A stretch of DNA of 43,937 nt from Actinomycetes bacterium (GTDB lineage Bacteria > Actinomycetota > Acidimicrobiia > Acidimicrobiales > GCA-2861595): positions 47,653-91,589 of the forward strand of contig JAHFUS010000004.1 of the NCBI GenBank assembly GCA_023264975.1. Direction: 5' to 3'. Made by a program: the position numbers and the translations under genes. Positions 2,362 through 43,344 of this stretch are shown one piece after another (positions within the stretch are counted from its first letter, which is position 1; each line of letters begins with the position of its first letter). Below the pieces are notes generated by a model. That model ran no database searches. It had not been told where the DNA came from and worked only from the letters and a program-made list of their open reading frames with translations.

Positions 2362-4965
2362 TCACTCGCTCCGACCGGCGGATCGGAACGCCTCGCCCAG
2401 CCCGGAGCCCTCGCGGAGCCGGAGCGCCACCGCCACATCGAGCCGCTCCAGGAGCTGGGAGACCACCCGCGCCCGGCCGGCCAGCGGATGGGCCTCGAGG
2501 AACGCCCGGATGTCCACCGCCAGCTCCGGCGTGGACAGCGCCAGCACGCCGCCCAGCGCCCGCTCGTGCAGGTTCTGGGGCAGCTTGGCGGTCAGGTTGT
2601 CCCACTCCGCCTTGATCCGCTCCCACACCATGGCTCCGCCGGCCCGGTTGGCCAGCAGGAGGCTGATGACGAACGGGGCGTTCTGCGGGCGCACGTCCTC
2701 GAGCGCGAGGTTCAACGTGCGCTGGACGAGCGCGGGGTCCTCGAAACCGGTGAGGGCGTAGAGGTAGCGCAGCTCCTCCTGGGGCGTCGCCGCCGCCCGG
2801 CGGCCGGACAGGAACTGCTCGTACTCGGCCTCGCCGCCCCCGGCCGCCACCACCGCCAGGGCGGCGCCGGCCACGTCGGGGTCGACCGATGACGGATCGG
2901 CGACGGCGGCGGCGTGGATCTCGGCTGCCTTTGCCCGCACGCCGGGATCGGCCCCCATGATGCCGAGAGCACGGATGAGGGCGGCCCGGAGGCGGGCCCC
3001 GCGCCCGTCGTCGCCTTCGTCCTCCGCGACCCAGCCGAGACGATCGAGGGCGGGGCCGGCCAGCCGGCGGACGAACGCCTGGAGGTCGGCCCGGTCGGCG
3101 TCGGGAATGACGCGGTCCAGGGCCACGAGCCCGTCGAGCAGGCTCTGCCACACACTGGGGTCGTCGTCGCCGCCCAGCAGCGAAGTCAGCTCAAGGAACT
3201 CGGCCACTGGGGCCTCGGCGGCCAGCACCCGCGCCCACGTGTCGCTGGCCAGGCTGAGCCGCTCCAGGGCGTCGAGTTGGTCGAGGTGGGCGAGGAGCAG
3301 GGCGCGCAGGTCGTCGTCGTAGCCGACCCGGTAGTAGCCCCAGCCCCGCTCGTTGACCACGACCCAGTCGACGGTGGCGCCGGCGTCCGCGTCACCGACG
3401 AGGCCGATCGAGGCGCCGCCGGCGTCGAGCAGGACGCGACGCTGCACCAGGCGGCCACCGACCGAGGCGCGCAGGTGGACCGGGATCCGCCACGTCGGCG
3501 CCTCTGCGGTGCCGGTGGCGTCGCCGGCCGGCAGGTACCGGAAGCGTCGTTGCGTCAGTGCGACGGCGGTGCCGCCGTCGGTGAGGGACGCCGACACGAT
3601 CGGGAACCCGCCCTGCGGGATCCACGAGTCCATGATCGCCCGCGCCGGCTCGCCCGTTGCCTCCTCTACGGCGTCCCAGAGGTCGGCCGTCTCGGTGTTG
3701 GCGTGGCTGTGGGCGGAGATGTAGCGGCTGATGGCGACGCGGAACTCGTCGGCGCCCACGTAGCGCTCGAGCATGCGCAGGACGGCGGCGCCCTTCTGGT
3801 ACGTGAGGACGTCGAACATCCCCTCGGCCTCGACGGGGCGCTGGACGGGGAACTCGACGGGGCGGGTGGTGGCGAGGGCGTCGACGACCATGGCGTCGTC
3901 CCGGCTCGTGCCGAAGGTGACCCACCGCTGCCATGCCGGCATGAACGCGTCCACGCACAGCAGCTCCATGAACGTGGCGAAGGCCTCGTTCAGCCAGATG
4001 CCGTTCCACCAGCGCATGGTGACCAGGTCGCCGAACCACATGTGGGCGATCTCGTGGGCCACCACGTCGGCCACCCGCTCCAGCTCGCCGCGCGTGGCCT
4101 GGGCGGGGTCGATGAGGAGGAGGTTCTCGCGGAAGGTGACGGCACCGAGGTTTTCCATCGCCCCCATGGCGAAGTCGGGGAGGGCGATGAGATCGAGCTT
4201 CGAAGCCGGGTAGGCGAGCCCGAAGTAGTCGGCGAAGAAGCGCAACGAATGGCTGCCGATGTCGAGGGCGAAGCCGGTGAGGTGCTGCTTGCCGGGGACG
4301 GCGACGACACGCAACGGCGTGCCGTCCACGTCGAGGCCCTCGCTCGCCTCGAGGGGACCGACGGCGAAGGCCACCAGGTAGGTCGACATCCGCATGGTGG
4401 GCGCGAACTCGTGCTGCACCCGGCCCTCGCCGAGGTCGGTGACCTCGACGACTTCCGAGTTGGAGATCACGGCCAGGCCCTTGTCGACGACGAGGGTTGT
4501 GGTGAAGGTGGCTTTGCGGTCCGGCTCGTCCCAGCACGGGAAGGCCCGGCGGGCGTCGGTGGGCTCGAACTGGGTGGCGGCGATGGTGTGTTGCACGCCG
4601 GCGCCGTCGGTGAAGGTGCTGCGGTAGACGCCGTGCATCTTGTCGCTCAGCGTCCCCGAGAAGGTGAGGTGCAAGGTGTGCGCCCCGGGCTCAACCGTGC
4701 CCGCCAGGGTGATCACGGCTCGCTCGTCGTCGGGCCGGAGCTCGACCGAGCCGGCCACGGCGGTGCCGTCCGCGCCGAGCAGCTCCGCCTCGTGGACCAG
4801 GAGGTCGGCGGCGTTGACCACGACCTGCGTCACCCGCTCGTGCACCACGACGTGGACACGCTCCTCGCCCGCAAAGGTCCCCTCGGTGAGGTGAACGGTG
4901 AAGGTGAGGTCGTAGTGGGTCGGCTCGACGGTGCGCGGAAGCCGGTGCGGACCGTCGTTCGACAT
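2362..4965 (-). CDS. pepN: Aminopeptidase N, M1 family zinc metallopeptidase
   Basis: A protein of 867 residues, the normal length for actinobacterial PepN. It removes N-terminal amino acids from peptides in the cytoplasm. The substrate-recognition motif GAMEN is at about residues 268-272. The zinc site HEIAH is at 304-308, with the third ligand Glu327 in WLNEAF. An ERAP1_C-like helical domain fills the C-terminal half. There is no signal peptide. The start is supported by a TAGCCT box ending 8 nt upstream of the ATG, which suggests a leaderless mRNA. The gene is divergent from the PfkB kinase at 5000. Confidence 0.96.
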   Translation of the reverse strand: MSNDGPHRLPRTVEPTHYDLTFTVHLTEGTFAGEERVHVVVHERVTQVVVNAADLLVHEAELLGADGTAVAGSVELRPDDERAVITLAGTVEPGAHTLHLTFSGTLSDKMHGVYRSTFTDGAGVQHTIAATQFEPTDARRAFPCWDEPDRKATFTTTLVVDKGLAVISNSEVVEVTDLGEGRVQHEFAPTMRMSTYLVAFAVGPLEASEGLDVDGTPLRVVAVPGKQHLTGFALDIGSHSLRFFADYFGLAYPASKLDLIALPDFAMGAMENLGAVTFRENLLLIDPAQATRGELERVADVVAHEIAHMWFGDLVTMRWWNGIWLNEAFATFMELLCVDAFMPAWQRWVTFGTSRDDAMVVDALATTRPVEFPVQRPVEAEGMFDVLTYQKGAAVLRMLERYVGADEFRVAISRYISAHSHANTETADLWDAVEEATGEPARAIMDSWIPQGGFPIVSASLTDGGTAVALTQRRFRYLPAGDATGTAEAPTWRIPVHLRASVGGRLVQRRVLLDAGGASIGLVGDADAGATVDWVVVNERGWGYYRVGYDDDLRALLLAHLDQLDALERLSLASDTWARVLAAEAPVAEFLELTSLLGGDDDPSVWQSLLDGLVALDRVIPDADRADLQAFVRRLAGPALDRLGWVAEDEGDDGRGARLRAALIRALGIMGADPGVRAKAAEIHAAAVADPSSVDPDVAGAALAVVAAGGGEAEYEQFLSGRRAAATPQEELRYLYALTGFEDPALVQRTLNLALEDVRPQNAPFVISLLLANRAGGAMVWERIKAEWDNLTAKLPQNLHERALGGVLALSTPELAVDIRAFLEAHPLAGRARVVSQLLERLDVAVALRLREGSGLGEAFRSAGRSE

Positions 4966-22918: not shown

Positions 22919-23407
22919 GTGCCCGAGGGTAGTGCCCGCCGGCCCGCGATCCTGGTATCCGCCTGCCTGCTGGGTTTCCGGTGCAACCACCTCGCCGCCG
23001 CCAGCCCTTCGGCGGCAGTGTGGGCGCTCGGTGCGGACCACGATCTGGTGCCCATCTGCCCCGAGGTGGCGGGCGGCCTCGGCGTGCCCCGTCCGGCCGC
23101 CGAACTGCAGCCGGACGGGTCCGTGCGCACGGCTGCCGGCGATGACCTCACGGATGCGTACCGGCGCGGGGCGTCGGTCGCCGTTGCCGCTGCCCGCTCG
23201 GCCGGCGTCGTGGCCGCCGTGCTCAAGGCCCGGTCGCCGTCGTGTGGGTGCGCCGACGTCTACGACGGCACGTTCACCCGCACCCGGGTGCCGGGCGAGG
23301 GAGTGGCGGCCCGGGCGCTCCGGGAGTCCGGAGTGGCGGTGCTCTCGGAGGAGGATGCCGCCGCGGATGCGAGTATGGAGGCTCGGGCGCTTAGCTCAGC
23401 TGGCTAG
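22919..23407 (+). CDS. DUF523 family protein
   Basis: A 162-residue cysteine-bearing DUF523 protein. Signature motifs are [23 protein letters not shown] and KARSPSCGC. Some family members are thiouracil desulfurases; no more specific role can be assigned. The GTG at 22919 has TACTGT ending 6 nt upstream. The stop lies inside tRNA-Val: the last 23 nt overlap the tRNA 5' end. Confidence 0.88.
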
Positions 23408-23458
23408 AGCACTTCCCTTACAAGGAAGGGGTCGGGGGTTCGAATCCCTCAGCGCCCA
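23385..23458 (+). tRNA. tRNA-Val (anticodon TAC), integration target
   Basis: The acceptor stem GGGCGCT/AGCGCCC is perfect. The anticodon stem CTTCC/GGAAG encloses CTTACAA with anticodon TAC. The T-loop TTCGAAT is present. CCA is not fully encoded (ACC then T). From the anticodon loop to the 3' end the gene doubles as attL, and near-copies occur at 38596-38639 and 40485-40520. Confidence 0.96.
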
Positions 23459-23459
23459 C
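23416..23459 (+). repeat. attL of the tRNA-Val element (44 bp)
   Basis: The core begins in the anticodon loop and ends at the tRNA 3' end. It recurs at 38596-38639 with two A-to-G differences, and in a shortened form at 40485-40520. This is the usual crossover region of tyrosine integrases. Confidence 0.88.
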
Positions 23460-23516
23460 CTAAAACATGCTGGTCAGCGGCCATTTCCTGATGGGCGGTG
23501 CGGGCGCATCCACCCA

Positions 23517-23558
23517 ACGTAGCCACTTTGGACGTAGCCTTGGTCCTGATGGCTACGT
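23517..23558. promoter_or_regulatory. Arm-type integrase sites near attL
   Basis: ACGTAGCC occurs at 23517-23524 and 23532-23539, and its complement GGCTACGT at 23551-23558. The 10-mer ACGTAGCCAC is repeated at the right end (38399-38408). Two of the copies flank the -10 box and start codon of the integrase, so Int could autorepress. Confidence 0.6.
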
Positions 23559-24724
23559 CGCGAGGTCCGAGCGTGCGCTGGAGCGAGTCCGCCCAGCGGT
23601 GGATGTCGTGGGTGCGGTTCCCAGATGGGTCCCGCCGCAAGGTCGAGCGGGTTAGCCGGGCCGACGCCGAGCGCGACCTGGACGACCTGCTCGCGCTACG
23701 GGCCGAGGCGCTGGCGCCGGGCCCCAGGCGGCAGCGGGGGGCCACGTTCGCCGAGGTCCTGGACGCCTGGTTCGAGGCCGGGTGCCCCAACGCCGTGCCG
23801 AGCAGCCGGTCCCGCCACGTCCGGGTCAAGTCCGCCAACACCGTTGCCACCGCCGGCATCCTGCTGGCTACCCACGTCCGCCCCAAGCTCGGCCGGCTCG
23901 CCGTCGACCGCACCACGACCGAGCGCCTCGAGCGGGTGTTCCGGGAGATGGCCGCCGCCGACTACGCCACCGCCACCATCGACCGGACGTGGCTGTACCT
24001 CAACCAGGCCTGCCAGCTTGCGGTCCGCCAGCGCCGCACGAAGCTGAACCCGGCAGGCGACGTGCTTCTCCCGGCCGCCCGGCCGCCCAAGGTCCGCAAG
24101 TCGCTCACCATCGACGAGGCCCAGCGCCTCCTGGTCGACGCCATCCCCACCGACGCCCAGCCGGCCATGTGGCTCACCGGGCTGATGTGCGGCCTCCGCC
24201 CCGGCGAGCTGGCCGGCCTGCGCTGGCCGTACGTGGACCTGGAGTCCGCCGCGCCCACGCTGGAGGTCGCCGAGCGGGCCCTGGAGGTCGGCGACCGCTA
24301 CGCCGGCCAGGCCGCCCCGAAGACCGAGCGGGGCCGCCGGCGGATCGGCATGCACCCCTTGCTGGTCGCAGCCCTCATCCGCCATCGCCATGAGCAGCAA
24401 CTGCTCGGGCTGTACGACGCCGAGGGCTTCGTGTTCTGCACCCGCAACCGCACGCCGCAGTCCCTGTCCAACCTGCGGCGGGGCTTCCGCCGGCTGTGCG
24501 CCCGGGCCGGGCTGGGGGAGGACTGGACCACCTACGAGCTGCGCCACTCGTTCGTTTCGCTGGTGGCCGACCAGCTCGACGACCTGGTGAAGGTGGCCGA
24601 CCTGGCGGGCCACGTGGACACCCGCACTACCCAGGGCTACCGCCACCCGGTGCGCCCGTCGCTGCCCCACGCCATCGAGGCCTGGGACCGCCTGCTCGGC
24701 CCGCTCGACCCAGCGGCGACGTGA
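23549..24724 (+). CDS. Tyrosine-type site-specific integrase
   Basis: A 391-residue phage-type recombinase. There is an N-terminal arm-binding region, a SAM-like core-binding domain (about 65-165) and a catalytic domain. Catalytic residues seen: Arg217 (CGLRPGE), Lys258 (PKTERGRR), Arg332 (YELRHSF), His355 (GHVDT) and nucleophile Tyr364 (QGYRHP). The first His of the H-x-x-R box is Tyr here. The ATG at 23549 has TAGCCT ending 8 nt upstream. Its position 90 nt from attL is typical. Its stop overlaps the next gene (GTGA). Confidence 0.93.
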   Translation: MATSRGPSVRWSESAQRWMSWVRFPDGSRRKVERVSRADAERDLDDLLALRAEALAPGPRRQRGATFAEVLDAWFEAGCPNAVPSSRSRHVRVKSANTVATAGILLATHVRPKLGRLAVDRTTTERLERVFREMAAADYATATIDRTWLYLNQACQLAVRQRRTKLNPAGDVLLPAARPPKVRKSLTIDEAQRLLVDAIPTDAQPAMWLTGLMCGLRPGELAGLRWPYVDLESAAPTLEVAERALEVGDRYAGQAAPKTERGRRRIGMHPLLVAALIRHRHEQQLLGLYDAEGFVFCTRNRTPQSLSNLRRGFRRLCARAGLGEDWTTYELRHSFVSLVADQLDDLVKVADLAGHVDTRTTQGYRHPVRPSLPHAIEAWDRLLGPLDPAAT

Positions 24725-25844: not shown

Positions 25845-26353
25845 TCGGCCCGGGGGCGGCCGGCCTACGACGGCGCCTCGGGCCGGTGGGGTGGTTCGTG
25901 CTGGAGGAGCTGGCCGGCCTGGCTGGCGCCAGCGGGGTGGCGGTCACCAGTGTGCGGGCTCTGGCCGCCACCGTGTCGCTCGACAAGGACACGGTGGCCC
26001 GGGCCCTGCGCCGCCTCCAGGACGAGGGCGTAGTGACCCGCGTCGAGCAGGCGAACGGCGCCGGCTGCTTCGGCCCCGTCGGCTACCGCCTCGTTCCCGT
26101 TCCCGGCCTGGAGCACCTGAACCACGAGGCCCCCGAGGTCCGTCTCCCGCGCCCTCGCATCCCGGTCCCCCGCCGGTCCCCCGAGGGCCAGCTGAGCCTG
26201 CTCGACCGCGCCGCCGACGAGGCCGCCGGCGACGGCCAGTTCCGTGGCGATCCACCCCCCTGGCAGCTTGACGCACTTGCACCACCGGTGCGGCCCGAGC
26301 ACGCGTGCAGCACGCGGGACGCGGGGGACGGCGACGGAGGCCGGGGATGCTGA
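25841..26353 (+). CDS. Winged-helix protein upstream of the relaxase
   Basis: A 170-residue protein starting at GTG 25841. Residues about 17-75 form a winged helix (GWFVLEELAGLAG, SVRALAATVSLDKDTVARALRRLQDEGVV). The C-terminal part is Pro-rich and disordered. It may be a regulator or replication/transfer accessory factor; the family is not assigned. Its end overlaps the relaxase ATG by 7 nt (ATGCTGA), so translation is coupled. Its frame is continuous with that of the broken excisionase. Confidence 0.7.
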   Translation: MIGPGAAGLRRRLGPVGWFVLEELAGLAGASGVAVTSVRALAATVSLDKDTVARALRRLQDEGVVTRVEQANGAGCFGPVGYRLVPVPGLEHLNHEAPEVRLPRPRIPVPRRSPEGQLSLLDRAADEAAGDGQFRGDPPPWQLDALAPPVRPEHACSTRDAGDGDGGRGC

Positions 26354-28848
26354 GCGTCGCCAAGCTCAAGGCCGACCGCTCCTCCTACTACTGCGACGAG
26401 CTGGCAGCCGGCCTGGAGGACTACTACCTCGGCGCCCGGGAGGCGCCGGGCCACTGGATCGGGCGGGGGGCCGAGGCCCTCGGCCTGGCCGGTGCGGTGG
26501 TCGACACCGCCGGCTTCGAGGCCATCCTGGCCGGCCGTGACGCCACCACGGGGACGGCGCTCACCGATGGGTCGGTGAAGGTCCTCGGCTACGACGCCAC
26601 CTTCTGCGCCCCCAAGTCCGTGTCGGTGCTCTACGGATTGGCCCCGCCGGTCGTGGCAGAAGAGGTGAGGGCCGCCCACGACGCGGCGGTGGCGGCCGCC
26701 CTGCGTACCTACGAGGACGTCGCCTGCCGGGCCCGGCGGGGCCACGCCGGGGCGGTGGTGGTGGAGGCCGAGGGCTTCGTCGGCGCCGCCTTCACCAGCC
26801 GCTCCGGCGACCCCCACCTCCGCACCCACGTCGTGCTGGCCCACCCGGTCCGCCACGCCGGGCGCTGGAGCGCCCTCGACGGCCGGCGCTGCTTCCCGTG
26901 GGCCAAGCCGGTCGGACACCTCTACGAGGCCCAGCTACGGGCCGAGCTGACGAGGAGGCTGGGCGTTGAGTGGGGACCGGTGCGCAACGGCATCGCCGAC
27001 ATCGCGGCGGTGCCCGCCCCGGTGCTCAAGGCCTTCTCGCAGCGCCGGGCCGAGATCGAGGCCCACCTGCAGGCGACGGGACGGCGCTCGGCCCGGGCCG
27101 CCCAGCTGGCCGCCTGGTCCACCCGGGGGCCCAAGGACCTCGGGCGCTCGGCCGCCGACTTCGCCGCCGAGTGGCGCCGTCGGGCCGCCGAGCTCGGCGC
27201 ATCGGAGGACACCGTGGCCGCATGGACCGGACACGGCCGGCCCGTCGCCCCTCCCGGTGCGGCCGAGGTCGAGACGCTGTTCGCCGGCCTGGGCGGCCCC
27301 GAGGGCCTCACCGCCCGGCGTTCCAGCTTCGACCGCCGGGCGGTGGTGTGCGCCAGGGCCGACGCGTGCGCCGGCGGGGCGGACGTCGACGCCGTCGTGG
27401 GCCTGGTCGATCGCTTCCTCGCCTCGGAGCGCGCCGTGGCACTGCCCGTGACCGCAACCTCCGGTCACGTGCTGCGCCGCCGGGACGGCACCGTCGTTCC
27501 CCTGGAGGCCGACGGCGCCCGCTTCTCCACGCCCGAGATGCTTGCCGTCGAGCGCCAGCTCCTCGACGGCGCCGCCGCCCGACAGCGGCGCGACCTCGCA
27601 CGGGTGCCGCTGGCGGTGCTGCGAATGATGCTCGACCAGCGCCGGGACCTGAGCATCGAGCAACGGAGGATGGTCCACCACCTTTGCAGCAGCGGCAACG
27701 GCGTGGACGTCGTGGTGGGGGCGGCTGGCACCGGCAAGACCACCGCCCTCGGGTCGGCCCGGGAGCTGTGGGAGCTGGCCGGCTTCCGGGTGGTGGGCTG
27801 CGCCCTGGCCGCCCGGGCGGCAGCGGGACTCTCCGCCGGGGCGGGCATCGAGTCCTCGACCATCCACCGCCTCCTGGCCTCGAGGGCGACAGGCACGCTG
27901 CCGGAACGCACCGTCCTGGTAGTCGACGAGGCGGCCATGGTTGGCACCCGCCAGCTGTCCCGCCTGGCCGACCTGGCCGCCGCCAGCGGGGCCAAGCTCG
28001 TCCTGGTGGGCGACCATCGCCAGCTGCCGGAGATCGAAGCAGGCGGCGCCTTTGCCGCCCTGGCCCGCGAGCTGGACGCCGTCACCCTGCGCCGCAACCG
28101 CCGCCAGGTCGAGGCATGGGAGCGCCAGGCCCTGGCCGACCTGCGGGACGGCAACCCGGGCCGGGCCATCGACGCCTACCTGGCCGCCGGCCGGGTCCAC
28201 GCCGGCCCCGACGCCGCCGGGGTGTTCGAGCAGATGGTGAGTGACTGGGAGGCGGGACGGGCCCGGGGCGAGGAGGTGGTGATGATCGCCCCCCAGCGCC
28301 GCCAGGTGGCGGTCCTCAACGGCCTGGCACGCCGGCGCCTCGCCGACGCCGGCGTACTCGGTTCCGAGGTGGTCGTGGCCGGTGGCCGGCGGTTCGCCGC
28401 CGGCGACGAGGTGCTGGCCGGCCACAACGACTACCGCCTTGGACTGCTCAACGGGACCCGCGGCACCGTCACCGCTGTCGACGTGCGCCGGAGCCGGGTC
28501 AAGGTGGCCACCGAGGACGGGCGCAACGTGGACGTCCCCCGTTCCTACCTGCAGGCTGGCCGCCTGACCCACGGTTACGCCACAACGCTTCACAAGAGCC
28601 AGGACGCCACCGTCGACGCCACCCTCCTCCTCATCGACGACCAGGGTTACCGGGAGGCGGCCTACACCGGGATGTCCCGGGGCCGGATCGCCAATCGGGT
28701 GTATGTGGTCAGCGACGACCCCGAGGCGCTCGAGGCCTGTGCTGGTCGGCCGCTGCCAGTGGACGGGGTCGCCACCCTGCGGGCGGCCGTCGGGAGGTCA
28801 GCCGCCCAGGAGCTGGCCACACCCCCGGCCCTACGACGCCGGCGGTGA
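26347..28848 (+). CDS. MobF-family relaxase/helicase (TrwC/TraI-like)
   Basis: An 833-residue conjugative relaxase. N-terminal catalytic tyrosine pairs are at 14/15 and 26/27. The metal-binding histidine motif is GDPHLRTHVVLAH (His157, His161, His166); the middle His of the common LHTH is Arg. A RecD-like helicase follows, with Walker A GAAGTGKTTAL (about residue 458) and Walker B VVDEAAMVG, and a C-terminal UvrD-like YATTLHKSQ motif. It nicks oriT and unwinds the transferred strand. No VirB/VirD4 genes accompany it, so the element is likely mobilized by others. Confidence 0.92.
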   Translation: MLSVAKLKADRSSYYCDELAAGLEDYYLGAREAPGHWIGRGAEALGLAGAVVDTAGFEAILAGRDATTGTALTDGSVKVLGYDATFCAPKSVSVLYGLAPPVVAEEVRAAHDAAVAAALRTYEDVACRARRGHAGAVVVEAEGFVGAAFTSRSGDPHLRTHVVLAHPVRHAGRWSALDGRRCFPWAKPVGHLYEAQLRAELTRRLGVEWGPVRNGIADIAAVPAPVLKAFSQRRAEIEAHLQATGRRSARAAQLAAWSTRGPKDLGRSAADFAAEWRRRAAELGASEDTVAAWTGHGRPVAPPGAAEVETLFAGLGGPEGLTARRSSFDRRAVVCARADACAGGADVDAVVGLVDRFLASERAVALPVTATSGHVLRRRDGTVVPLEADGARFSTPEMLAVERQLLDGAAARQRRDLARVPLAVLRMMLDQRRDLSIEQRRMVHHLCSSGNGVDVVVGAAGTGKTTALGSARELWELAGFRVVGCALAARAAAGLSAGAGIESSTIHRLLASRATGTLPERTVLVVDEAAMVGTRQLSRLADLAAASGAKLVLVGDHRQLPEIEAGGAFAALARELDAVTLRRNRRQVEAWERQALADLRDGNPGRAIDAYLAAGRVHAGPDAAGVFEQMVSDWEAGRARGEEVVMIAPQRRQVAVLNGLARRRLADAGVLGSEVVVAGGRRFAAGDEVLAGHNDYRLGLLNGTRGTVTAVDVRRSRVKVATEDGRNVDVPRSYLQAGRLTHGYATTLHKSQDATVDATLLLIDDQGYREAAYTGMSRGRIANRVYVVSDDPEALEACAGRPLPVDGVATLRAAVGRSAAQELATPPALRRRR

Positions 28849-30866: not shown

Positions 30867-33518
30867 TCACGTGGCGGGCGGCACCTCCTGGAGGACGCCG
30901 TCGTCGGTCCCGATGATGGCGGCGGCCTGCTGGGCGCTGAGCGTCTCGTGCTCGAGGAGCGCGGTGACCAGGCGGTCGAGGTCCTCCGCACGCGACGTCA
31001 GGACGTCGCGTGCCCGGGCGGCGGCCTCGTCCACCAATGCACGGACCTCGGCGTCGATGAGCCGCGCCGTCTGCTCGGACCACCGGCGCTGGCCACGGCC
31101 CTCGATAAAGGGAATGGCGCCCACCGCCTCGCTCATGCCCAGCTCGCACACCATGCGCCGGGCGATGACGCCCACCTGCTCGATGTCGCCGCCCGCACCC
31201 GAGCTGGGCTGGCCGTAGACCAGTTCCTCCGCCTCCCGGCCGCCGAGAAACACCGCCATGCGATTCACCAGGCGGTCCCGGGAGAACACGGACCGGTCGG
31301 CGTCGTCGATCATCCGGCAGTGGGCGAGGGCCCGGGCGCGGGGGACGACGGTGATCTTGTGAAGGCTGCTGGCCCCGAACAGGGTGATGGCGACAAGGGC
31401 GTGGCCCGCCTCGTGGTACCCCACGAGACGGCGCTCGTAGGCCGAGAGCAGGGTTCCGCGGGACGCGATACCGAGCGACACCCGGTCGATGCTCTCGTCG
31501 ATGAGCGCCCGCGAGATGGACGGGTGGCCCTGGCGGGCGGCGAGGAGCGCCGCCTCGTTGAGGACGCCGGCCAGGTCGGCGCCGGAGAACCCCTGGGTGA
31601 GGGCGGCCACCACGTCGAGGTCGACGTCGGGCGCCATGCGCTTGGTGCGGGCGTGGACGGCGAGGATGGCGCGGCGACCGGCCCGGTCGGGGAGGGACAC
31701 CTCGACCTCGCGGTCGAAGCGGCCGGGCCTCACCAGCGCCGAGTCGAGGATGTCGGGACGGTTGGTCGCCGCCATCACGATCACCGCCGAGCGGGCGTTG
31801 AAGCCGTCGAGCTCCACGAGGATCTGGTTGAGCGTCTGGTCGCGCTCGCCGTGGCCCTCGAGGGACTGGCCGCGGGAAGCGCCGATGGCGTCAAGCTCGT
31901 CGATGAAGACGATGGACGGGGCCACCGAGCGGGCCTCGGCGAACAGCTCCCGCACCCGGGCCGCTCCCTGCCCCACGAAGATCTCCACGAACTCGCTGCC
32001 CGACACCGAGAAGAAGGCGGCGTTGGCCTCGCCCGCCACGGCGCGGGCCAGCAGCGTCTTGCCGCATCCCGGCGGCCCCGACAGCAGGATGCCCCGGGGC
32101 GGTTGGGCGCCCATGGCGGCATAGGTGCCCGGGTCGGCCAGGTACGACTGGATCTCGGCCAGTTCGGCGATGGCGTCGTCCACACCCGCCACGTCAGCGA
32201 AGGTGACCCGGTCGGTGGTTGAGGATCGCTTGGCGATGCTGCGCTGCCGCATGGCCAGGCGACGCTGGCGCTCTGGGGCGTCGAGGACGCGCTGGAGCGC
32301 CTCGTCCAGCTCGGCCTGGCCGATGACGGCCTTGCCGGCGCGGGCGGCCAGCAGGGCGCTCTCGTTCAACACGTTGGCCAGGTCGGCTCCCGTCATCCCG
32401 ATCGCCCGCGACGCCAGCCCACGCAGGTCGACCTCGGGGGCCATCACCTTGGCGCGGGCGTGGACGCGCAGGATGGCCAGCCGGTCGGCCTCCCCCGGCA
32501 GCTCGAGCCCGACACTGCGGTCGAAGCGGCCGGGCCGCAGGAGGGCGGGGTCGAGCACGTCGGGGCGGTTGGTGGCGGCCAGCACGATGAGGCCCTCGGA
32601 CGGCGAGAACCCGTCCATCTCGGCGAGGATCTGGTTGAGCGTCTGCTCCTGCTCGCCGTGGACGGCCACCACGCCGCCGGTCGCCCGTGACCGGCCGATG
32701 GAGTCCAGCTCGTCGATGAAAATGAGCGCCGGTGCATGCTGGCGCGCCTCGTCGAACAGGTCCCGGACCCGGGCCGCCCCGATGCCGACGTACATCTCCA
32801 CGAAGTCGGACCCGGAGATGGACCAGAACGTGGCGCCCGCCTCACCCGCCAACGCCCGGGCCAGAAGCGTCTTGCCGCAGCCCGGCGGCCCGAACAGCAG
32901 GACGCCCTTCGGCACCGATGCTCCCAGGGCGACGAAGCGGGCGGGGTCGGACAGGAAGTCCTTGATCTCCCGCAGCTCGGCCACCGCTGCGTCCTGCCCC
33001 GCCACGTCGGCGAAGGTCGCCGTCGCGTGGTCGGGCAGGATCCGCTTGGCCCCGCTACGCACCCGGAACAGGCCCGAACCTGAGCGGAACGAGATGATCA
33101 TGTAGATGAACAACACCACGAGGATCAGGCTCGGGAGCAGGTAGCTCGCCAGGCTGACGAGCCGCTTTCCGTTCTGCTGCTCGATCTCGATCGGGATCCG
33201 CTTCGCCACCAGCACGTCGATGAGCGGCTGGCGGCTCTCCTTCAGGTAGGGCGTGTTGTAGGCGACGCTGGTGCCGTCGGCGCGGGTGTACCGCCCGACC
33301 AGGAACGAGTCGACGTCGAGGATGCGGGCGCTCTTGACGTTGCCGCTGTCCACCAGGGCGAGGAATGTGTCGAAGCGGAGCCGGTCGCCGTCGACGTGCG
33401 GGCTCGACATCTCCAGCACGCCGACGTAGGCGCACGCCAGGAGGAGGACGGCGGCGGCCGCCCACGGGCCGAGCCGCCGCTCCTCCTGCTTCCTTGTCCG
33501 CCGCCGACGTGCTGCCAC
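30867..33518 (-). CDS. FtsH-type membrane protease with two AAA+ modules
   Basis: An 883-residue protein; ordinary FtsH is about 600-700. Order: basic N-terminus, TM1 (about 19-34), FtsH periplasmic-type domain (40-120), TM2 (about 126-143), AAA-1, AAA-2, M41 peptidase. AAA-1 has Walker A GPPGCGKT (210-217), Walker B LIFIDE (265-270) and Arg finger RPGRFDR (328-334). AAA-2 repeats all of these at 481-488, 536-541 and 598-604, offset by 270-271 residues. Pore loops are MYVG and IFVG. The protease site is HEAGH (702-706) with third ligand Asp778 (GAGGDIEQ). All sites look intact. The GTG starts 3 nt after the stop of the surface-protein gene, so the two are coupled. It lies inside the tRNA-Val element. 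Confidence 0.92.
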
Positions 33519-38595: not shown

Positions 38596-38639
38596 CCTTA
38601 CAAGGAAGGGGTCGGGGGTTCGAGTCCCTCGGCGCCCAC
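38596..38639 (+). repeat. attR: copy of the tRNA-Val 3' half
   Basis: A 44-bp near-identical copy of 23416-23459 with two A-to-G changes. The 5' half of the tRNA is absent. Downstream sequence (gcaaagaggctggtca) also resembles the DNA following attL and the third copy. Confidence 0.88.
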
Positions 38640-38741
38640 GGCAAAGAGGCTGGTCACCGCCTGACCCGGGATCAGTGCCAGCCCGTCGCTGGGTGAAGAG
38701 ACCGGACGGCCATCGCTGCGTCGTGAAGCCGGACCCGGCGA

Positions 38742-40484: not shown

Positions 40485-40520
40485 CTTACAAGGAAGGGGT
40501 TCGAGTCCCTCGGCGCCCAC
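40485..40520 (+). repeat. Third, shortened tRNA-Val 3' copy (attR2)
   Basis: A 36-bp copy of the att core lacking 7 nt (TCGGGGG) before the T-loop. It carries the same two G variants as attR at 38596, so both right ends derive from the original chromosomal tRNA end. Confidence 0.8.
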
Positions 40521-40555
40521 GGCAAATGTGCAGGTCAGCACCACGGAGCCACCTC

Positions 40556-40584
40556 TTTACACACGAACATATGTTCGTTATTAT
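40556..40584 (+). promoter_or_regulatory. SOS-box (LexA) promoter of the HNH endonuclease gene
   Basis: TTTACA (-35, 40556-40561), 17-bp spacer, TATTAT (-10, 40579-40584). The spacer contains the perfect 16-bp palindrome ACGAACATATGTTCGT (40563-40578), matching the Gram-positive/mycobacterial LexA consensus CGAAC-N4-GTTCG. The ATG follows 6 nt after the -10, so the mRNA is leaderless. Confidence 0.85.
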
Positions 40585-40590
40585 GGGCAG

Positions 40591-41904
40591 ATGGGGCTGG
40601 CGCTGGTGCAGCGGGACGACGAGTTGCACGTGGTGGCCGACGGCCCCGAGAGGCGGCTGTGCGAGGCCATGGGCCTGCTCAACGTGGCCACCGCCGAGGT
40701 GGTGGCGTCCATCGCCGAGGCGCTGGCCGGTGACGACTGGCAGGGCGACGGCATCGTCACCCCCGAGCAGTGGGTGGCGCTGCGCTGCGGGGTCACGTCC
40801 AACCGGGCCCGGCGCCTGGTGTCGGCCGCCCGCGCCCTCGACTTGCTGCCGGCCGCGGCGGCTGCCTTCGCCGACGGGGCGCTGAGCGAGGACCAGGTGG
40901 GCCTGGTGTGCCGCCACGTCGATCCCGCCCACGACGCCGAGGTCACCGAGTTGGCCCGGCGCTGCACCGTCAGCCAGCTGCGCCGCATCCTGCCGTCGGT
41001 GGTGCCGCCTGCTGCTGTGCCCGACCCCGATCCCGAGCCGGGCACGGGCGAGGAGGGCGACGCCACCTCGGCCGGCGGCGACGTGGCGGGGCGCCGTGAG
41101 GTGGCCTTCGGCAACAGCGAGGACGGCCGGTGGTGGGCGCGGATACTGCTGCCGCCCGACGAGGGCGCCCTCGTGCAGGCCGCCATCGAGGCGTCGCTGG
41201 CCGCTCTTCTGCACGACGAGCCCGGCGGGCCCGCCGGCGCCGAGCGGGGCCACGGTCCGCTCGCTCCCCGCCTCGGCTGGTCCGAGGCCCTGCTCCATAT
41301 GGCCGAGGCCGCCCTGTCGAACATCGAGGGCAGCGGGCGCACGCCGGCAGACCGCTACCAGGTGGTCATCCACGTCGACGGCAACGGCTTCGACCGCTCG
41401 TCGCTGCACCTCGGCCCCCTCCTGGCGGCGTCGGTGGCGGAGTACCTGGCCTGCGACTCGACGGGCCGGGTCGTGATCGAGGACAAGGGCACCCCCATCC
41501 ACGTGTTCGCCCGCATGCGCACCGTCGACGACCGCCTGCGCCGGCTCATTGAGCGCCGGGACGGGGGCTGCGTGGTTCCCGGCTGCGGGCGCAGGCGCCG
41601 GCTGCACGTGCACCACATCACCCACCACGGCGACGGCGGGGCGACGGTGCCGGAGAACCTGTGCTGCCTGTGCCCCGCCCACCACCGCCTGCACCACGCC
41701 GGCAGGCTGGGCATCGCCGGCGACCCCACCAGCCCACACGGGCTGCGCTTCACCGACCAGTCGGGGAGGTTGCTCCGGGGACCGAGCCCGTGCCCTCCCG
41801 GTGCGCCGCCGCACGAGGCGGCTGCCGCCATGGGGCTGCCGGCGCCGGCGTGGGAACCGCCGCACGGCGAGCGGCTCGACACGAAGTGGATCACCTGGAG
41901 CTGA
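40591..41904 (+). CDS. DUF222 / HNH endonuclease family protein (13E12-like)
   Basis: A 437-residue protein with an N-terminal DUF222 helical domain (GLLNVATAEVVASIAEAL, VTSNRARRLVSAARALDLLP) and a C-terminal HNH nuclease motif (CVVPGCGRRRRLHVHHI, ENLCCLCPAHHRLHH) holding two Cys pairs and the catalytic His. Actinobacteria carry many such genes, often in repeat families (13E12 in mycobacteria). The LexA box in its promoter indicates DNA-damage induction. ATG 40591 is fixed by the -10 box. It lies just outside attR2. Confidence 0.9.
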   Translation: MGLALVQRDDELHVVADGPERRLCEAMGLLNVATAEVVASIAEALAGDDWQGDGIVTPEQWVALRCGVTSNRARRLVSAARALDLLPAAAAAFADGALSEDQVGLVCRHVDPAHDAEVTELARRCTVSQLRRILPSVVPPAAVPDPDPEPGTGEEGDATSAGGDVAGRREVAFGNSEDGRWWARILLPPDEGALVQAAIEASLAALLHDEPGGPAGAERGHGPLAPRLGWSEALLHMAEAALSNIEGSGRTPADRYQVVIHVDGNGFDRSSLHLGPLLAASVAEYLACDSTGRVVIEDKGTPIHVFARMRTVDDRLRRLIERRDGGCVVPGCGRRRRLHVHHITHHGDGGATVPENLCCLCPAHHRLHHAGRLGIAGDPTSPHGLRFTDQSGRLLRGPSPCPPGAPPHEAAAAMGLPAPAWEPPHGERLDTKWITWS

Positions 41905-42577: not shown

Positions 42578-43000
42578 ATGCCGCGTCCAACCTCGTTCCG
42601 TCTCCCGGCCGAACTTCTCGAGCGGCTCGAGACCGAGAGTCAGGTCAACAGCACGTCGATGACTGCCCTCGTGACCACGTTGCTCGACGAGGGTCTCAAG
42701 ATCCGCCAGTTCCCGGGCATCGTCTACCGGGGTGGTCCGACCGGCCGGCGGGCCGGTCTTGTCGGAGGACCCGATGTCTGGGAAATCGTCCGCGATCTCC
42801 GTCACGCGCCAGGACGGGGCATGGCGCGCATCACCCACCTCAGGGACGAGACGGGCCTATCCGCGGGTCGCATCAGCCTCGCGGCGGACTTCTACGCCGC
42901 GTTCCCTCACGAGATCGACACCCGGATCGAGGCCGACGAGCAGGCGGCCGAGCGTGTCCGACAGCTTGTGGAGCATCGCGACCGCCTCCTGTCGTCGTGA
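42578..43000 (+). CDS. Antitoxin-like protein (RHH plus DUF433-like)
   Basis: A 140-residue protein. The N-terminus (RPTSFRLPAELLERLE) resembles a ribbon-helix-helix DNA-binding segment. FPGIVYRGGPTGRRAGLVGG followed by DVWEIVRDLR resembles DUF433. It overlaps the downstream DUF5615-like gene by 4 nt (GTGA), the typical antitoxin-toxin order. ATG 42578 has TACACT ending 6 nt upstream; an in-frame ATG at 42560 is less likely because it lies before that box. Confidence 0.7.
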   Translation: MPRPTSFRLPAELLERLETESQVNSTSMTALVTTLLDEGLKIRQFPGIVYRGGPTGRRAGLVGGPDVWEIVRDLRHAPGRGMARITHLRDETGLSAGRISLAADFYAAFPHEIDTRIEADEQAAERVRQLVEHRDRLLSS

Positions 43001-43344
43001 GGTGGCTGATCGACGAGATGCTTCCACCAGCGGTCGCCGATCATCTGCATCAACTCGGTCACGATGCGCTTGGAGTCGCGGCCGCTGGGCTTGCTGAAAC
43101 GAATGACACCGTCATCTACGCAGCCGCCGTCGAGCAGGACCGGGTGGTGGTGACGGAGAACTTCGCCGATTTCAGCGTGATCGTGACCCAGCGGGTCGCA
43201 GGCGACGAGCCCTGTGTCCCCGTCCTGTTCGTCAAGAAGCAGGACTTCCCGCGGGGTGGCGCGCTCGCTTCGCATCTCGCCGACCACCTCCGTCGGTGGG
43301 CAACCGCCAACCCCGACCCCTACCCCGGCCCGCACTGGCCGTGA
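42997..43344 (+). CDS. DUF5615 PIN-like toxin
   Basis: A 115-residue protein beginning VRWLIDEMLPPAVADHLHQLGHDA, with the N-terminal Asp-Glu of PIN-like nucleases and later VVVTENFADFSVI (acidic Glu/Asp site). Members of DUF5615 pair with DUF433 antitoxins as presumed ribonuclease toxins. The GTG overlaps the antitoxin stop. Confidence 0.78.
   Translation: MRWLIDEMLPPAVADHLHQLGHDALGVAAAGLAETNDTVIYAAAVEQDRVVVTENFADFSVIVTQRVAGDEPCVPVLFVKKQDFPRGGALASHLADHLRRWATANPDPYPGPHWP

Follow-up and report, generated by a model that had tools for sequence, protein, structure and literature searches.

Background

The closest described relatives of the gene reported here are the 13E12-family (DUF222-HNH) genes of Mycobacterium tuberculosis, for which SOS control is already known; Rv0515, Rv1702c, Rv3074 and Rv3776 are part of the LexA regulon (PMC5005354), and five putative HNH endonucleases, the family of which was not named, are induced by mitomycin in a RecA-dependent manner (PMC8151990). 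A mismatch-repair role was once proposed for 13E12 genes (PMC4181829), and the REP13E12 repeats were described in a preprint as gene-conversion hotspots without defined function (PMC13061034). The gene studied here lies in a 43,937-nt stretch (hereafter the window) of contig JAHFUS010000004.1, from a bacterium of the Acidimicrobiia lineage. Like its M. tuberculosis counterparts, which are upregulated with the LexA regulon (PMC5005354, PMC4181829), it belongs to a multi-copy family and carries a box of the type TCGAAC-N4-GTTCGA; it differs from them in its lineage and in that the box is placed between the -35 and -10 elements of a promoter that is probably leaderless. The two papers bear out the statement of the first-pass annotation that some mycobacterial 13E12 genes are in the SOS regulon.

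The window gene alone is a further case of this known SOS-controlled type. Beyond the M. tuberculosis case, we report that the family also occurs with another type of LexA box in Gammaproteobacteria, and surveys of upstream sequences make it highly probable that, in Actinomycetota as well as in Proteobacteria, DUF222 genes are controlled by LexA through the box type of their own lineage. That members of a single nuclease family carry, in different phyla, the LexA box of the respective lineage is new as far as we searched; searches confined to open-licence PubMed Central brought up no account of LexA-controlled DUF222 genes other than in mycobacteria.

A candidate LexA operator inside the promoter of the window gene

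Read directly from the sequence, positions 40556-40593 give the order TTTACA, one base, ACGAACATATGTTCGT, TATTAT, six bases, ATG, in which ACGAACATATGTTCGT (40563-40578) is a perfect 16-bp palindrome inside the 17-nt spacer between the two hexamers (Table 1). This agrees with the first-pass annotation, according to which such a palindrome fills the spacer and translation starts 6 nt beyond TATTAT; the ATG, at 40591, is in frame with the DUF222-HNH open reading frame (ORF), which ends at 41904. The hexamers represent the sole sigma-70-like promoter match between 40300 and 42100, with 10 of 12 positions matched (shuffled sequences: mean 0.0, standard deviation 0.2). With TATTAT as the -10 element, transcription is expected to start at approx. 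40591, i.e., at the ATG, and the mRNA is thus probably leaderless, as judged from promoter spacing.

The palindrome, which overlaps the predicted promoter, matches the consensus CGAAC-N4-GTTCG, to which sites at the lexA and recA genes of the source genome also conform, and its core agrees with the LexA consensus tCGAAC-N4-GNNCGa determined by chromatin immunoprecipitation sequencing in Streptomyces venezuelae (PMC9380542). The window contains one exact CGAAC-N4-GTTCG site, as compared to 0.09 expected by shuffling (9 of 100 shuffles reach one site), so that this lone box is only mildly surprising when taken alone. A single exact site is not strong evidence in itself; the evidential weight lies in the position of the box and in the genome-wide pattern.

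The LexA regulon and the DUF222 copies of the source genome

Ten of eleven genomes compared had a match to the first 250 residues of the RecA protein of the source genome (3.78 Mb in 139 contigs); identity was highest for three labelled Acidimicrobiia (83, 81 and 73%), as compared to 71% for a Solirubrobacteraceae genome and 67-70% for the others, and the phylum was therefore taken to be Actinomycetota. The source genome encodes LexA once, with Peptidase_S24 and LexA_DNA_bind domains; the first-pass annotation had named a lack of LexA as an argument against its interpretation, and the lexA promoter itself carries two exact boxes. Genome-wide, exact CGAAC-N4-GTTCG occurs at 18 sites as compared to 1 for the pattern read backwards. 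Eleven of the 18 boxes adjoin genes with recognised domains; in addition to the two at lexA, the genome scan placed four at DUF222 gene starts and one each at recA, ruvC, an IMS-family gene (ImuB-like, Y-family polymerase), a DEDDh exonuclease gene with a GIY-YIG domain and an ORF with a glyoxalase fold. One further exact box is located beside an ORF without Pfam match, near the IMS gene; among the six remaining boxes, the site on contig C92, and probably that on C33, are inside long ORFs. Four other genomes contain 19-31 exact boxes versus 0-7 for the reversed pattern, and some exact sites of any genome are therefore background.

DUF222 is a multi-copy family in the source genome, with eight matches representing seven genes (two matches fall in one gene). 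Four of these seven genes carry an exact box and the other three a one-mismatch box, which is the outcome of a check of the remaining DUF222-HNH promoters that the first-pass annotation had proposed. Some individual sites may be mentioned. On contig C14 (L025), the box at 3261 separates a DUF222-HNH gene from a divergently oriented gene for a 902-amino-acid DUF1156 protein, and could control both. The copy on contig C68 (L006/L031), near the contig end, is truncated (237 amino acids), yet its box is exact. The recA gene of the genome (contig C83, L033:3165-5543) carries an intein with a LAGLIDADG domain.

The operator and promoter geometry, the LexA gene and the genome-wide boxes support the proposal, already contained in the first-pass annotation, that LexA would control the gene from a box in its promoter. 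A LexA dimer on the operator would cover the -35/-10 spacer and keep RNA polymerase off; DNA damage would activate RecA, followed by LexA self-cleavage and synthesis of the leaderless DUF222-HNH mRNA. The product would be a stand-alone endonuclease in which an HNH domain at the C-terminus is combined with a DNA-binding part predicted to be ParB/Noc-like, and would most likely act on chromosomal DNA in the SOS response, e.g., by cutting or processing it to let recombination act. We consider it likely that the window gene encodes such a LexA-repressed, damage-induced endonuclease acting on chromosomal DNA. The sequence basis consists of the operator, the predicted promoter, LexA, the intact nuclease residues and a family-wide association with two kinds of LexA box, from which we infer LexA binding, induction, cutting and cellular purpose.

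LexA boxes upstream of DUF222 genes across Actinomycetota

In an even draw from the phylum, 57 of 149 genomes contained DUF222. We examined 116 DUF222 genes from 44 genomes, searching from -350 to +30 of the DUF222 match. The sample was taken from among the matches listed and included 29 loci as delivered and 80 picked for matches that start near the N-terminus of the profile; the share of three many-copy genomes of one family was limited. One locus (L008), which is the second half of the gene in L007, was left out of the counts, and three of the 116 genes (L005, L056 and L063) start late in the profile, so that the upstream span may miss their true start.

An exact box was found upstream of 48 of the 116 genes and a box with at most one mismatch upstream of 82. 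Stretches of equal size within the same genes contained no exact box and 4 boxes with at most one mismatch, and 29 palindromes with rearranged arm letters reached at most 1 exact match and 9 matches within one mismatch. Across the same loci, 49 exact sites were present in 41.9 kb of upstream DNA as compared to 3 in the remaining 258 kb. Counted by genome, at least one exact box was present in 24/44 genomes and a box within a single mismatch in 34/44. The counts were 44/109 (exact) and 75/109 (at most one mismatch) when the source genome was removed, and 35/86 and 58/86, respectively, when four genomes of the f30 family were removed as well; five loci from named Actinomycetota showed exact boxes in 2/5 and boxes within one mismatch in 3/5.

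The arrangement seen in the window gene is one of several. Loose matching, carried out without a shuffle control, placed a -10-like hexamer at the upstream edge of 32 of the 82 boxes and just downstream of 20, the latter being the layout of the window gene, with a -35-like hexamer present in addition at 17 of the 20; both layouts were found at 1/82 boxes and neither at 31/82.

A different LexA box upstream of proteobacterial DUF222 genes

A search with five relatives yielded 80 loci, mainly from Gammaproteobacteria, Rokubacteria, Gemmatimonadota, Acidobacteriota and Myxococcota. Proteobacterial counts are based on 35 of 39 loci, as four with <350 nt of upstream sequence were left out. Two loci kept in these counts (L220 and L221) are labelled Gammaproteobacteria, group with Gemmatimonadota in the protein tree and are probably misbinned contigs.

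The motif CTGT-N8-ACAG, which we take to be the gammaproteobacterial LexA box (hereafter the gamma box), was found upstream of 13/35 proteobacterial DUF222-HNH genes as an exact match and upstream of 23/35 with at most one mismatch. Exact gamma boxes occurred 13 times in 12.7 kb of upstream DNA versus once in the other 215 kb of locus DNA; with at most one mismatch allowed, the numbers were 25 and 47. When two mismatches were allowed, the longer form TACTGT-N8-ACAGTA preceded 20 genes, with a single occurrence in the 215 kb. None of the 35 proteobacterial genes showed the actinobacterial box within one mismatch, and none of the 116 Actinomycetota genes showed an exact gamma box. A dyad count that was blind to the motif ranked ACTG-N10-CAGT (14/31) and TACTG-N10-CAGTA (10/31) first in gammaproteobacterial upstream regions, while the commonest dyads inside the genes were CG-rich and reached 10/31 and 5/31. 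The alphaproteobacterial-type motif GTTC-N7-GTTC, also tried, had an exact match in no group.

DUF222 relatives are present in the marine Gammaproteobacteria Halioglobus japonicus and Seongchinamella sediminis; Corynebacterium glutamicum was matched in a control search. An even draw of 229 genomes from the class of Halioglobus, the Halioglobus genome included, contained DUF222 in five. Of 12 matches in this draw one fragment (L294) was left out, and L290 and L169 are one and the same gene. Among the 11 genes, 6 had an exact gamma box and 10 a box within a single mismatch. The centre genome of the draw (G152) was chosen for having a DUF222 gene; without it the counts are 4/9 and 8/9, six of the nine genes being from one genome.

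These findings bear on the alternative that the palindrome is the site of a regulator other than LexA, or owes its conservation to coding for the first residues Met-Phe-Asp/Glu. Some relatives may have an in-frame start inside the box: where a box has NTG at the corresponding place (65 boxes), the frame of the gene is kept in 31 (P = 0.017 as compared to one third); 27 of the 65, however, have NTG in another frame and 7 in the third, and the excess thus lacks specificity for the reading frame. The idea of a general layout with the start codon within the box is accordingly weak, the second frame being nearly as frequent. Moreover, the left arm of the box lies upstream of any such start codon, the ATG within the box of the window gene is out of frame with the DUF222-HNH ORF, and proteobacterial genes carry a different palindrome, the box of their own LexA. 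The last two points led us to reject coding constraint as a sufficient cause of conservation, and we regard the alternative as a whole as very improbable.

Genes without a box, other phyla and family history

Several observations weigh against LexA control as a general property of the family. No box within one mismatch was found at 34 of the 116 Actinomycetota genes or at 12 of the 35 proteobacterial genes, and none of the four DUF222 genes examined in a genome of the same order as the source genome (G031) had such a box. Gamma boxes with at most one mismatch were found at 12 of the 116 Actinomycetota genes, which is twice background; lone one-mismatch matches therefore mean little. In Rokubacteria, TCAAC-N4-GTTGA was present at all three lexA promoters examined and at none of nine DUF222 genes, with three mismatches in the best case, and this motif was rejected for these genes; no recurring palindrome was found in the DUF222 upstream regions of Gemmatimonadota and Acidobacteriota. 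One-mismatch matches to the actinobacterial type in one Rokubacteria locus and one Acidobacteriota locus were taken as chance.

LexA was encoded in all 20 genomes checked. In Myxococcota, TGAAC-N4-GTTCA was found as an exact match at one of four genes and with one mismatch at another (1/4 each), numbers too few for a claim. Overall, upstream sequences lend good support to SOS control of DUF222 genes in two phyla and make it possible in a third, Myxococcota. The LexA-box rule is not universal, as no convincing box was seen in Rokubacteria, Gemmatimonadota and Acidobacteriota, and the genes without a box in Actinomycetota (34/116) and Proteobacteria (12/35) indicate that SOS control is common, not obligatory. 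The first-pass annotation suggested that the window gene ties the family to the SOS response in another lineage; on the surveys of Actinomycetota and Proteobacteria, this tie extends further than was assumed there.

In a midpoint-rooted tree of 128 proteins, built by a quick method, non-actinobacterial sequences were nested among actinobacterial ones, many of which have the actinobacterial box. Operator labels required 25 changes on this tree, a number as low as which was reached by none of 200 shuffles (mean 52.2). With the limits of a midpoint root and mixed support, this fits a history of transfer out of Actinomycetota followed by operator replacement.

By eye, eight rokubacterial loci and one acidobacterial locus (L172, L181, L186, L188, L189, L191, L202, L207 and L212) have a common upstream element that is CCGAAA...GGGTGTAGAGTC-like; another regulator may act on these DUF222 genes.

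The DUF222-HNH protein

The DUF222 match of the window protein is well above the Pfam cut-off (65.7 versus 24.4 bits), and the HNH match is marginal (21.5 versus 21.4 bits), with the conserved Cys, His and Asn residues of the HNH motif intact. Two predicted models had mean predicted local distance difference test (pLDDT) values of 76 and 82 and predicted template modelling (pTM) scores of 0.53 and 0.55. When the approx. 100 N-terminal helical residues were compared to known folds, DNA-binding domains of ParB/Noc proteins took ranks 1-10 with both models (best Z 9.1 and 8.3); over ranks 1-9 with the first model, residues ~26-142 gave Z 8.1-9.1 and root mean square deviations of 2.4-3.1 angstrom over 97-102 residues. 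HTH_ParB was matched in 6 of 42 relatives at E values up to 1 (best 0.016).

Foldseek found no match at E ≤0.001 with either model, helical parts can reach such Z values by common arrangement, and profile comparison with the ParB-type domain gave E values of 0.0055-0.017 at low probability (reversed-column control: 0.28-0.52). A ParB/Noc-like DNA-binding part at the N-terminus is thus suggestive. The likeness to the parS-type domain of ParB/Noc is one of predicted fold; the window protein differs in that no ParB CTPase domain is among its Pfam matches, its sequence similarity is not significant alone and the part is joined to a nuclease.

The predicted HNH fold is closest to the modification-dependent endonucleases McrA and TagI and to the HNH domain of IscB (Z 7.2-7.9 over 65-79 residues), from which the window protein differs in its N-terminal part, where DUF222 is the only Pfam match. 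The window protein looks like a stand-alone DNase with a putative ParB/Noc-like part and a C-terminal HNH domain. A search for a conserved operon partner among 1047 mechanically called ORFs (at least 100 amino acids) around the 80 loci yielded none, the largest cluster covering 6 loci at scattered positions. A possible functional parallel is Ref of phage P1, a RecA-dependent HNH nuclease tied to the SOS state (PMC4713147); Ref differs in being a phage gene, and the sequence resemblance is at chance level (PF16786 similarity in 2 of 42 members, best E 0.23).

Table 1. Features of the DUF222-HNH gene and its upstream region in the window
Feature	Position	Strand	Basis
-35-like hexamer TTTACA	40556..40561	+	direct reading and promoter scan
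Putative LexA operator ACGAACATATGTTCGT, a perfect palindrome of 16 bp that fills the spacer	40563..40578	.	same core at lexA, recA and ruvC of the genome
-10-like hexamer TATTAT	40579..40584	+	direct reading and promoter scan
DUF222-HNH (13E12-family) protein, 437 amino acids	40591..41904	+	Pfam DUF222 5.9e-18, HNH 2.7e-4
Residues ~26-142, helical, predicted fold ParB/Noc-like (suggestive)	40666..41016	+	predicted models, weak sequence support
HNH match (residues 332-370) in which the conserved Cys, His and Asn are present	41584..41700	+	Pfam match and invariant residues

Possible roles of the induced nuclease

The resemblance of the HNH region to McrA and TagI raises the question of an SOS-induced, restriction-like nuclease directed against phages or plasmids, and one relative (L120), alone among those compared, showed a weak match to type IV restriction models. 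PADLOC, however, found no match for the window protein or two paralogues, and the lack of any widely recurring neighbour in the 80 loci gives no sign of a cognate methylase or partner. We consider a defence role quite unlikely.

A DNase of programmed death, which would degrade the chromosome after irreparable damage, is compatible with a stand-alone nuclease under stress control and has a possible parallel in the HNH nuclease MSMEG_1275 of Mycobacterium smegmatis, which cleaves chromosomal DNA and kills when over-expressed (PMC9416677). The membership of MSMEG_1275 in the DUF222 family could not be established, and it alone, among five HNH genes over-expressed there, greatly inhibited growth (PMC9416677). 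It can also be argued that a suicide system would be costly if present in many copies per genome and governed by a common stress response, and this role appears unlikely, if somewhat less so than defence.

The strongest rival to DNA processing that feeds recombination, which we prefer as the job of the induced nuclease, is that the gene is a selfish or semi-mobile repeat that would use cutting by its nuclease to propagate or homogenise its copies, with the SOS response timing the cutting to periods of active recombination. When copies of the source genome were aligned at the DNA level, the similarity between C68 and the copies on C139 and C34 (the window copy) started at the LexA box and nothing upstream could be aligned; the C139 and C68 copies are 97.5% identical over 711 nt. 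Another genome has two copies with 98.8% identity over 1364 nt, beginning 14 nt upstream of the box, with nothing aligned beyond. Next to the window gene is a decayed, tRNA-derived repeat that belongs to an integrated element, and the M. tuberculosis REP13E12 copies are, as cited above, hotspots of gene conversion (PMC13061034, preprint).

The similarity edges are not constant, however. Similarity between the C139 and C34 copies starts ~60 nt past the start of the box, the first ~80 nt of the C68 and C139 copies are diverged while the rest is nearly identical, and edges vary between copy pairs of other genomes, some being >100 nt upstream of the box; an edge at the box may thus reflect conserved sequence together with gene conversion, not an insertion edge. 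The family is, moreover, rare on plasmids and nearly absent from phages: searches with the window protein against 50,697 phage records (E limit 1e-3) and 72,556 plasmid records (E limit 1e-6) were both negative, and L120 matched 14 phage records, only one of which covered >30% of the query, and few plasmid records. Selfish spread is accordingly an explanation that we regard as possible and, on balance, doubtful.

Neighbourhood of the window gene

A tRNA-Val gene followed by a tyrosine integrase gene is located at 23385-24724, and copies of the tRNA 3'-end occur at 38615-38661 and 40496-40542; these copies resemble the attachment sites that one or two integrated elements would have. The gene with the SOS box starts just outside the outermost, decayed copy. 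Inside the presumed element, 26305-28848 encodes a TrwC-type relaxase with a helicase part. On the minus strand, a single frame at 30867-33518 encodes two tandem AAA modules followed by an M41 peptidase, i.e., a double-headed FtsH-like protein. The nuclease gene is followed, at 42580-43344, by a small ORF, ribbon-helix-helix-like by eye (no Pfam match), and then by a DUF5615 (PIN-like) ORF, resembling a toxin-antitoxin pair.

Conclusions

As one nuclease family is paired with different lineage-specific LexA boxes, damage induction can be argued to be part of the function of the family, and the upstream sequences suggest that it is central to the role of DUF222 proteins. A wider proposal, which we put forward tentatively, is that DUF222-HNH proteins are widespread SOS effectors, i.e., ParB-like nucleases that would cut the chromosome of damaged cells for recombination and whose SOS control would matter so much that the genes, after passage between phyla, acquired the LexA box of the recipient; what is bold in this proposal is the role as a nuclease and the recognition of DNA by a ParB-like part. 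The 13E12/DUF222 genes have so far been called repeats, mobile elements or parts of mismatch repair, without a defined function. The presence of the same gene under unrelated LexA boxes in two phyla would turn a mycobacterial curiosity into a broader SOS gene, the function of which could be approached in non-pathogenic hosts such as Corynebacterium glutamicum, Halioglobus japonicus and Seongchinamella sediminis.
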